In this document: in pieces, positions 6,335-8,140 of the stretch | Numbering within the stretch: position 1 is the first letter of the stretch | Layout of the letters: every line of letters begins with the position of its first letter | NCBI RefSeq assembly: GCF_026239735.1 | Contig: NZ_JAPIVT010000002.1 | Location: 186,001 to 250,000, forward strand | Length of the DNA: 64,000 bases | Reading direction: 5' to 3' | From: Pedobacter sp. MC2016-05 | GTDB taxonomy: Bacteria > Bacteroidota > Bacteroidia > Sphingobacteriales > Sphingobacteriaceae | Position numbers and translations under genes: made by a program | Notes under the pieces: model-generated | Seen by the model: the letters and a program-made list of their open reading frames with translations, nothing else | Databases searched by the model: none | What the model was told of the DNA's origin: nothing

Positions 6335-6365
6335 AAAGCCTTAACAATCGAGTTGTTAAGGCTTT
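6335..6365. repeat. left copy of a 31-bp hairpin flanking the IS element
   Basis: A perfect stem-loop with a 13-bp stem (AAAGCCTTAACAA with its complement) and loop TCGAG, followed by a short T run. An identical 31-bp copy in the same orientation lies at 8110-8140 on the other side of the element. It can be read as a target-site duplication, as an old terminator the element landed in, or as part of long terminal inverted repeats, because the palindrome matches almost as well in inverted orientation. Confidence 0.85.
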
Positions 6366-6401
6366 TTTGAGTTTGGCTATTTACTAGTCAATAAAAAAAA
6401 G

Positions 6402-6434
6402 TAGCCGTAAATTTGGTTTTACGGCTATTTTTTT
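6402..6434 (+). terminator. terminator-like hairpin inside the IS left end
   Basis: TAGCCGTAAA (6402-6411) pairs perfectly with TTTACGGCTA (6418-6427) and is followed by seven T residues. It lies upstream of the first IS ORF and downstream of the 31-bp hairpin. The two structures together would block transcription entering from the left, a known way for insertion sequences to avoid uncontrolled transposase expression. Confidence 0.75.
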
Positions 6435-6464
6435 AGATTTTTATATCTAGTTAAAAGACTAGAT

Positions 6465-6671
6465 ATGGGTTACCCAACGAAAGTACAGGTTATTAAGAGG
6501 AAGACAAGTGAGCAGTGGTACGTTAATTTTCCGGCAGCTGTTGCCCAGGCAATTGAGTTCAAGCAGGGCGAGATTGTGGAGTGGATTATCGATGACAACC
6601 AGCGATTGGTGCTTCAGAGAAGTGATGAGTCCGTTGAGGACCTTAAAAAAAAACTCCCCAAGAAACCCTGA
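6465..6671 (+). CDS. AbrB/MazE-like small ORF of the IS (frameshift donor)
   Basis: A 68-residue product with the look of a swapped-hairpin AbrB/SpoVT/MazE DNA-binding domain: VQVIKRKTSEQWYVNFPAAV, then QAIEFKQGEIVEWIID and LVLQR. Such domains dimerise and bind DNA. Here it is carried inside the IS. Its codons run GAC CTT AAA AAA AAA CTC through an A9 run (6645-6653), and it stops at 6669-6671. The transposase frame is open across this point in the -1 frame, so this ORF is best seen as the N-terminal domain of a 544-residue fusion transposase plus, possibly, a free short protein that could act as a repressor. The fold is inferred from pattern only. Confidence 0.72.
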   Translation: MGYPTKVQVIKRKTSEQWYVNFPAAVAQAIEFKQGEIVEWIIDDNQRLVLQRSDESVEDLKKKLPKKP

Positions 6672-8098
6672 TCGGAAGCTTCAGATCGATTTTTGAGGGT
6701 TGCCTGCCAGCTTTTAAACAAGCCAGAACTTTTGAACGTGCCAGGTCTTTGGCAATGGGTGTACTGGGATGTCTTGGCCGGTGTACCATTACCGGTATAC
6801 TCTCAGCCAATGGCAACCAGTTCAGGGACTGGTCTGCAGCGTATAGATTGTTTAAGGATGACAGAATGAACCTTGATTGTATCTTCGGGGCTGTAAGAAG
6901 AGGTGTCCAGAAACTTAATTTTTCTTTAAAAGACACGAATATCTATGGCCACATGGACGATACCCTGTTTCGTAAAAAAGGAAAAAATGTATTCGGAACC
7001 TCTTGGTTAAGAGATCCTTTAGGGCCACCTTTCGCAAATAATTTCGTCTGGGGCCAAAGATTTATACAGGTTTCGCTCTCGCTGTTAGAGAATGGATCCT
7101 CTGGTTCTTCAAAAGCAATACCTGTAGATCTTGTCCATTGCCCCGCCACCAGGAAACCTGGTAAGAATTCTTCACAAGCGGAAGTTGCTGCTTTCAAAGA
7201 AACCCAGAAAAAAGCCAAGCTTAGTGAAATCGGTATTCAGCGCATTGTTAAGTTAAGGACCGATCTGGATAGCGATGGGCACGCAGAAAGGAAGCTTATC
7301 ATGAGCGTGGACGGAAGCTATACCAATGAAACAGTGATAAGAAAGCTCCCTGATAACGTTGATCTGATAGGCAGGATCCGAAAAGACTGTAAGCTTTATG
7401 CACTTCCCTGTGAGCAACCCCAGGGATCCGGCAGAAAAAAGTATTATGGAGAGGAACTTCCCACTCCGGAAATGATCCGACAGAACCTTCAATACCCCTA
7501 TATGGAAGTGAAAGCCTGGGCAGCAGGGAAAATCAGATCCTTTGATGTCAAGGTTATCAGGAACATAAGATGGAGAAAATCAGGACAGAAAAACCTAATG
7601 CTTGTTATAGTAAGACCAGTCGGCTACAGGCTCACTAAAAAATCAAAACTACTTTACAGGAACCCGGCATATCTGATATGTACCAATCCAGAAATGGAAA
7701 TAAGTACGCTGTTGCAGAGCTATATAAGAAGATGGGAAATAGAGGTTGGTTTTCGGGATCAGAAAACGCTGATCGGCTGTGGGCAGGCCCAGGTTAGGTT
7801 AGAAGGTGTCGTGGAGAAAGTACCTGCGTTTATTTCAGCATGCTACGGAATGATGCTATTGGCTGCTCACGAAACGGACCTGGCTGAAAAGGTTTCTCTG
7901 CCAGGGACAAAATGGTATAACAATGCCATAAGAAAAAGAACAACAACGGGAGATATATTAAACAGATTTAGAGCAGAAAAATGGATGGAGAGCATCAAAA
8001 TCAATTTTTCCGACTTCGTGAACATAGAGAATAAAATAGCAAAATTGGAAAAATTAGCAAATCCTGTATTATCTTCATTATTTTACATGAGAAATTAG
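6654..8098 (+). CDS. IS4-superfamily DDE transposase (expressed by -1 frameshift)
   Basis: The catalytic part of the IS transposase. The frame is open from inside the upstream ORF: TPQETLIGSFRSIF..., then FKQARTFERARSLAMGVLG. This is typical N-terminal transposase sequence lying before the first usable start (TTG at 6749), so translation most likely enters by slippage on the A9 run at 6645-6653. Likely DDE residues lie in YGHMDDTLF and in MSVDGSYTN, with the final glutamate in SYIRRWEIEVGFRDQK, which fits the IS4 Y-(2)-R-(3)-E-(6)-K signature exactly. The stop codon (8096-8098) overlaps the right inverted repeat. No disabling mutation is seen. Confidence 0.88.
6664..6701 (+). promoter_or_regulatory. 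candidate frameshift-stimulating stem-loop
   Basis: AACCCT (6664-6669) can pair with AGGGTT (6696-6701), enclosing a second near-palindrome with GATC at 6670-6673 and 6684-6687 around GAAGCTTC. It begins 10 bases after the A9 slippery run and overlaps the stop codon of the first ORF. This is the expected position for a structure that stimulates -1 ribosomal slippage. The structure is drawn by eye and its energy was not computed. Confidence 0.5.
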
Positions 8099-8109
8099 CC
8101 AAACTCAAG

Positions 8110-8140
8110 AAAGCCTTAACAATCGAGTTGTTAAGGCTTT
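8110..8140. repeat. right copy of the 31-bp hairpin flanking the IS element
   Basis: Identical over 31 bases, loop included, to 6335-6365 and in the same orientation. It is directly followed by an open frame on the plus strand with no start. Confidence 0.85.

Follow-up and report, generated by a model that had tools for sequence, protein, structure and literature searches.

The described insertion sequences closest to the locus analysed here belong to the IS4 and IS701 families. In the available parts of De Palmenaer 2008 (PMC2266710), IS4 elements are marked by a single ORF, no frameshift, the YREK signature and target duplications near 10 bp, and IS701 elements by a conserved 4-bp duplication and a YREK tyrosine that is mostly missing. 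In the IS1272/IS1182 family stem-loops are targeted by their structure, not their sequence; IS1272 replaces the stem-loop without duplication, and duplication of a whole stem-loop appears in the available text only as the hypothetical pathway b (PMC5678879). As to expression, IS elements with 8-10 A's were explained by transcriptional slippage in the accessible portion of PMC1088944, while families shifting in one direction were taken as cases of ribosomal shifting in that of PMC3711429. According to the accessible text of PMC4066793, a hairpin was conserved in the eight IS clusters carrying -1 motifs, and A_AAA_AAG ranked among the best of the motifs.

The locus in the window, a stretch of 64,000 nucleotides from Pedobacter sp. 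MC2016-05, probably represents an IS4/IS701-related lineage with a transposase fused by slippage on an A8-A9 run, likely inserting at the bases of hairpins and duplicating the whole hairpin; this reading is drawn from sequence comparison. The element is 1744 bp long (6366..8109, + strand), its borders being set by terminal inverted repeats and flush 31-bp direct repeats, and it was found in a single copy in the genome. The left terminal inverted repeat, TTTGAGTTTGGC (6366..6377, +), matches the right one (8098..8109, - strand; GCCAAACTCAAG on the + strand) at 11 of 12 positions, and the right repeat overlaps the transposase stop codon TAG at 8096-8098. The direct repeats are two copies of a target hairpin, AAAGCCTTAACAA-TCGAG-TTGTTAAGGCTTT, with a 13-bp stem. 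The left copy lies at 6335..6365, and the right copy at 8110..8140, in the same orientation, is identical to it at 31 of 31 positions. The sequence-only reading had placed the element at 6465..8098, which proved too narrow; the duplicated hairpin lies in the flanks outside that interval and was absent from the reading.

Inside the left end, a CTAG half-site (ACTAGT, 6383..6388) is followed by a terminator-like hairpin upstream of ORF1 (6390..6439, +; inverted repeat I2, 22-nt arms, 86% complementary), which may shield the element against transcription from outside. The candidate operator ATCTAGT-N6-ACTAGAT (6445..6464, +) abuts the start of ORF1, a 68-aa frame at 6465..6671 (+) encoding a MazE/AbrB-like DNA-binding domain. 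As the earlier reading had stated, ORF1 crosses an A9 run at 6645..6653 (+), assigned as the slippage run by family comparison, and reads it as AAA AAA AAA CTC. The claim that the transposase frame is open in -1 across the run was likewise confirmed: this frame (6647..8098, +) follows the stop TAA at 6644-6646 and stays open to its end. A mechanical ORF call starts at TTG 6749 and yields 449 aa. A net -1 change on the A9 run results in a fusion of 63+481=544 aa, which agrees with the slip product that had been proposed.

Homologues of the transposase were numerous, 3326 at E 1e-20 or better, and the best 120 of these 3326 were all no longer than 490 aa. A single scan across genomes of bacteria and archaea yielded 80 loci. 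Eight places came from a phylum sample: besides the window copy there were seven, two of which repeated known loci (L086 = L025, L088 = L042) so that five were new; in this sample the transposase was detected in 5 of 395 genomes at E 1e-40, own genome included. No relative was found in viral contigs in one scan, and none at E 1e-20 in 147 related genomes besides the own genome. Among 92 loci, 64 had an ORF1 match, and four of the 64 repeated the window copy, leaving 60 with the window counted once.

The A run and its frame relation, put forward from the window sequence, were conserved in these homologues: 50 of the 60 ORF1 loci, window and GC-rich elements included, showed the -1 relation together with an uninterrupted A8-A9 run. 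By codon phase the runs were 34 A9 in phase 0, 6 A9 and 2 A8 in phase 1, and 1 A9 and 7 A8 in phase 2. The run lay inside the ORF1/ORF2 overlap in 49 of the 50, the remaining one (L075) being a contig-end fragment with a stop after the run; the 50 also include the internally deleted L064. Since one duplicate (L086) and near-copies are among the 50 canonical loci, the number of distinct junctions is 47. The base 3' of the run was C in 46 of these 47. When each element's own use of AAA and AAG was taken into account, the log10 probability of all lysines in the run being AAA was determined to be -35.5 for the 47 junctions; for those 24 elements whose GC exceeds 0.55 it was -24.7, both under a null that takes the loci as independent. 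That 50 of 60 loci keep both the A8-A9 run and the -1 relation indicates that the frame break is not due to local decay.

The same comparison bears on the possibility that the window copy is a pseudogene or carries a homopolymer sequencing error. A9 runs are prone to sequencing error, and the single copy in the genome as well as the lack of relatives in the 147 related genomes would fit this view. Nevertheless, a like run and frame relation occurred in 49 other loci, with 47 distinct junctions in all, the ends are intact and the 31-bp duplication is perfect, which leaves hardly any probability for this explanation. Decay or error was rejected on the basis of the conserved run and frame relation across loci.

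The ten exceptions were of several kinds. A +1 relation was found at L005, L022 and L090 (A8, phase 0) and at L032 (A8). L063 had A6G and a broken transposase, L045 was without a run, the run of L065 was interrupted, and L078 and L082 were broken. L021, with A10, was in frame: its run fuses ORF1 directly to the transposase frame, yet the frame is broken farther downstream. L090 and L087, near-identical copies of one genome (G253), have A8 and A9, respectively; this one-A difference indicates that the run length drifts between copies.

A protein tree was built from 49 selected rows. One branch (97/96) split the 43 rows with ORF1 from the six without ORF1, and according to a warning of the program the long branches of these six may join falsely. 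The codon phase of the run changed repeatedly on the tree (nine changes over all labels). The tree was built without the near-copies L008, L009, L086 and L090-L092, without L021 and L022, which are broken, and without six of the ten sister loci described below; the proteins were limited to 400-600 aa and the junctions to runs of at least 6. According to record titles, the hosts of canonical junctions belong to Bacteroidota, Balneolota, Ignavibacteriota, Verrucomicrobiota, Planctomycetota, Acidobacteriota, Actinomycetota, Bacillota, Thermodesulfobacteriota and Synergistota; many of these hosts are metagenome bins, in which the assignment of a mobile element can be wrong.

Natural fusions were obtained by a search with the fused query, scored on residues 1-120 (105 candidates), which resulted in eight proteins, four of them without ORF1. 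The four fusions, three full (P0122-P0124; 545, 555 and 557 aa) and one truncated (P0121; 355 aa), all join at KKT. The start sites of ORF2 were compared in 25 hand-sorted junctions from outside Bacteroidota, Balneolota and Ignavibacteriota. A Shine-Dalgarno (SD)-like motif preceded ORF1 in 16 of them. In the ORF2 frame between the run and the core, a start codon was present in 19 and an SD-like motif in 1, and the positions of the starts varied. By another measure, the core motif was found in 35 of the 47 distinct junctions; between the run and the motif 20 of them had an ATG and 31 any start, so 15 were without ATG and 4 without ATG, GTG or TTG. No conserved ORF2 start was found among the junctions compared, and conserved transposase sequence was present upstream of the first start in the ORF2 frame, which bears out the earlier observation of family-like sequence ahead of that start.

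The presence of a start before the core in 19 of 25 or 31 of 35 junctions, the two proteins carried by databases, and the overlapping coupled start that is indeed used by L057 would speak for ORF1 and ORF2 being two separate genes, the latter with its own start. This arrangement is very improbable, as the start positions are variable with an SD-like motif in 1 of 25, conserved transposase sequence lies ahead of the first start, four natural fusions exist, and the A run is kept against codon use. Separate translation of ORF2 is thus made unlikely by variable starts, by starts missing in some junctions and by the scarcity of SD-like motifs. A fused, slippage-made transposase is strongly supported by the sequence comparisons, and the earlier proposal of a slip into the -1 frame at the A run was upheld by the 50 of 60 loci, the four fusions and the lack of a conserved ORF2 start. 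If true, the absence of a frameshift falls as a hallmark of YREK transposases.

Slippage on the A8-A9 run would thus join the MazE/AbrB-like ORF1 to the frame of the DDE transposase, and the comparison of junctions slightly favours RNA polymerase over the ribosome as the slipping machine. Ribosomal -1 slippage on A_AAA_AAA is a possible alternative, rated as somewhat the less probable of the two. It accords with all 50 canonical sites, which by their phase and length hold an in-frame A_AAA_AAA, with a shift direction that is almost always -1, and with minimum runs of 9 for phase 0 and 8 for either of the other phases, which are near the need of the heptamer (9, 8 and 7, respectively). Against it, no folding signal was detected 3-63 nt downstream of the run in the 47 junctions (mean z +0.13 compared with -0.16 in a control region), unlike the conserved hairpin of the PMC4066793 clusters, and an SD-like motif ahead of the run was present in only 5 of 47. 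Moreover, the efficient A_AAA_AAG was unused at the 47 distinct junctions and occurred only in the broken L063, and A8 variants occur among copies whose transposase frame is open apart from the run (L005, L032, L090).

A conserved stimulatory structure or SD motif before the run was considered as well and was not seen in the 47 junctions. The stem-loop noticed earlier downstream of the run, formed by AACCCT (6664-6669) and AGGGTT (6696-6701), is present as a pairing in the window but is not conserved in relatives. As the A8-A9 recoding site is held across about ten phyla with a changing codon phase, these elements provide a ready set for comparing polymerase and ribosome slippage.

The product of ORF1 was compared with the MazE family by profile. 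The window ORF1 matched Pfam MazE_antitoxin with E 4.5e-5 and a score of 23.8, slightly under the cut-off of 24.7, and the ORF1 of the relative P0134 scored 25.7, above it. The model of ORF1 had a pLDDT of 85.7, and its best Foldseek neighbours included MazE, VapB, SpoVT and AbrB with weak E-values (best 0.29). The swapped-hairpin type of N-terminal domain assumed from the window is accordingly supported by comparison, through profile and Foldseek matches that are weak; the structure prediction proposed for the N-terminal ORF gave MazE/AbrB-type fold neighbours consistent with it, but a best E of only 0.29. A search restricted to proteins of 37-119 aa yielded 1097 separate matches to ORF1, and no match was found in a plasmid collection at E 1e-3.

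In raw counts over 52 loci, 49 had a CTAG at most 35 nt upstream of the ORF1 ATG, and 43 had one beside the left element end. This recurrence makes the CTAG repeats before ORF1 a candidate autoregulatory operator. ORF1 alone would act as a repressor binding the CTAG repeats, and the fused protein would be the active transposase. Several ORF1 relatives (P0133, P0136, P0141 and others) bear the source name 'antitoxin component of MazEF', and the studied relatives precede a transposase frame. The MazEF antitoxin naming is probably a misannotation, and the two-part structure explains why pieces are listed in sources as 'MazEF antitoxin' and 'IS701 transposase'.

The closest profile to the window transposase was that of the IS701 family, NCBIfam IS701_3, with E 5.9e-45 and 153.9 bits compared with the cut-off of 170. 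Among the fused relatives, P0122 (177.7) and P0124 (171.9) were above this cut-off and P0123 (164.6) below it. The residues Y325, R328, E332 and K339 were invariant in 20 of 20 rows, so that the Y-(2)-R-(3)-E-(6)-K motif is complete. The model of ORF2 had a moderate pLDDT of 69, and its top Foldseek match was the Tn5 transposase (E 2.7e-8). With the catalytic residues assigned by motif, the spacings D70/71-D188 and D188-E332 were about 117 and 143, the first being slightly outside the IS4 pattern D(60-110)D(100-150)E. The assignment as IS4-type made from the window therefore stands in part: the DDE transposase with the full YREK motif and the Tn5-like fold fit, whereas the duplication length and the no-frameshift hallmark do not.

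The flanks of the elements were examined with ends called by the terminal motif, and a hairpin was counted when it had a stem of at least 6 and lay at most 2 nt from the end. Such hairpins adjoined 40 of the 50 left and 32 of the 39 right ends, and 26 of 37 loci carried them on both sides, the window and the duplicate L086 being counted; at random positions in the same loci the frequency was 124/12000 (1%). A few mis-called ends, such as those of L007 and L039, stay among the misses, and other end choices show hairpins at these two loci. No hairpin was found near the called end of L052, L053 (left end only) and L064. After removal of L086, 16 of 36 loci had the element flanked by identical direct repeats of the whole hairpin, 15-34 bp long, compared with 0 of 21977 random position pairs with flush repeats of at least 12 bp.

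The other 20 of the 36 loci had no flush repeat of at least 12 bp, the longest being 7 bp (L008), and ten of these 20 carry different hairpins on the two sides. We read the unmatched hairpins as presumed results of recombination between copies or of chimeric metagenome assembly. In genome G253, two hairpins are found in a swapped arrangement, A|B at L087 and B|A at L091, as expected from recombination between inverted copies.

The origin of the hairpins was indicated by copies and empty sites. In G253, near-identical copies adjoin different hairpins, which indicates that the target supplies the hairpins. Seven other Belliella genomes were compared at L010, and five of them hold its hairpin once and without the element; the alignments of the two flanks share 30-32 bp compared with the 32-bp repeat, and for three of these five there is also a match to the left flanking gene. 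The remaining two of the seven did not align over the hairpin. At the Sphingobacterium locus L005, the empty site of one relative gave an overlap of 27 bp compared with the 30-bp repeat, a second relative aligning less fully, and at the Cyclobacterium locus L011 one relative gave an overlap of 20 for 20 in a repeated region. An empty site was not found for the window copy among genus relatives, in which the intergenic region does not align, or for L025, whose flanks are present in most of 28 genomes, the alignments of two relatives not extending over the hairpin. Hairpins at most ends could also mean that they belong to the element or were acquired later; this is next to impossible, given the different hairpins beside near-identical copies of one genome and the single hairpin at empty sites in relatives.

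On a duplex, a very flexible complex would be needed to reach two joining points that are 15-34 bp apart, and the foot of an extruded cruciform is therefore suggested as the target. Strand transfer would take place at the two 5' feet of extruded hairpins, that is, at a four-way junction, where the two joining points are always adjacent; they would keep a fixed distance apart and the duplication length would follow the hairpin. The step from the hairpin duplication, which is the outcome, to the cruciform mechanism is one that we infer. The varying duplication length argues for a transposase that reads the shape of DNA.

Alternatively, a transposase dimer might read palindromic double-stranded DNA and cut both of its borders without extruded hairpins. 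MazE/AbrB-type proteins bind palindromic DNA as dimers, in line with such a dimer. However, the hairpins differ in sequence and range from 15 to 34 bp, so a stagger of very different reach would be needed, and the hairpin-flanked L058 and L051 show no MazE-like domain; the palindrome-reading dimer is therefore considered unlikely. Taken in full, attack on a cruciform may define a new IS family whose DDE transposase acts on the four-way junction, duplicates a terminator-like hairpin and has slipped transcripts of a MazE-like repressor gene as its sole source, a proposal that we hold tentatively and at a little under even chances. As each insertion would duplicate the whole hairpin, the element would land between two hairpins, which is proposed to be a near-harmless site.

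When set against the published descriptions, the lineage shares with IS4 the DDE transposase with the full YREK motif and the Tn5-like fold. It differs from the accessible description of IS4 by being frameshifted with two ORFs, a -1 change at A8-A9 being needed in 50 of 60 loci, and by duplications in the form of 15-34 bp hairpins (16 of 36 loci) instead of about 10 bp. The traits given for IS701, the 4-bp duplication and the mostly missing tyrosine, are both lacking in the window lineage. Thus, the lineage fits neither IS4 nor IS701 as described in the available parts of PMC2266710. IS1549 and IS1634 resemble it by their long variable direct repeats (8-514 bp), but neither a hairpin link nor a frameshift is mentioned for them in those parts.

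The targeting of stem-loops by structure is shared with the IS1272/IS1182 family; unlike the replacement without duplication given for IS1272 in the accessible text of PMC5678879, 16 of 36 loci have the hairpin here in two copies, and the empty sites have it in one. If true, this is a natural case of structure-directed insertion with duplication of the whole stem-loop, which was only hypothetical in the accessible IS1272 work. Similarly to the IS1202 family, as far as described in the available parts of PMC10132070, a special target is used, and some IS1202 members duplicate over 15 bp; in contrast, their transposase is Tn7-TnsB-like, and dif sites, not generic hairpins, are the targets of part of that family.

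The conserved run of 8-10 A's fusing two ORFs is in common with the transcriptional-slippage elements of PMC1088944. Unlike here, IS4 and IS701 are unnamed in that text (term counts 0), and a MazE-like ORF1 is unmentioned in its available portion. In the open-access literature, judged by titles and abstract starts among the matches listed, nothing was found on this lineage or on an observed whole-hairpin duplication. In our reading this is a new lineage, with insertion at the bases of hairpins and duplication of the stem-loop, set apart from the known families by their descriptions.

Ten plasmid loci with about 23% identity represent sister elements; nine are annotated with one transposase gene, and L189 is unannotated there. 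The ends of the single-ORF sister elements (CTCGACTTTG) are similar to those of the window lineage, and the six sister loci with confident ends all start CTCGACTTT. Their repeats were exact 5 bp in five cases, which include several close Rhizobiaceae relatives, and 7 bp in one; L190, L194, L195 and L196 were left out of this count as their borders were not confident. No hairpin was flush with the end in the six sister elements, L188 having a stem-6 hairpin just past its 7-bp repeat. Due to the 5-7 bp repeats and the lack of flush hairpins in the sisters, the whole-hairpin duplication appears to be a derived trait.

An ORF1 match was missing in 28 of the 92 loci, and in 20 of the 28 the match to the transposase query begins beyond its residue 25. 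Of the other eight, three still have the A9 run but no ORF1 that could be recognised (L042, its duplicate L088, and L079); in L044 a shortened remnant of ORF1 lies in the frame of the transposase, and in L033, L051, L057 and L058 ORF1 was not seen. The two sides of L058 carry different hairpins, and L051 has a hairpin on the right, its contig containing only 218 nt upstream. As no ORF1 was detected at these two hairpin-flanked loci, hairpin targeting can probably do without the MazE-like domain. The idea that this domain selects the hairpin, prompted by the single-ORF sisters with their 5-7 bp repeats, was weakened by the same two loci. At L057 a different upstream ORF of 115 aa (L057:2052-2399) with a sub-threshold HARE-HTH match overlaps the GTG start of the transposase by 4 nt, suggesting that an accessory DNA-binding module has been exchanged.
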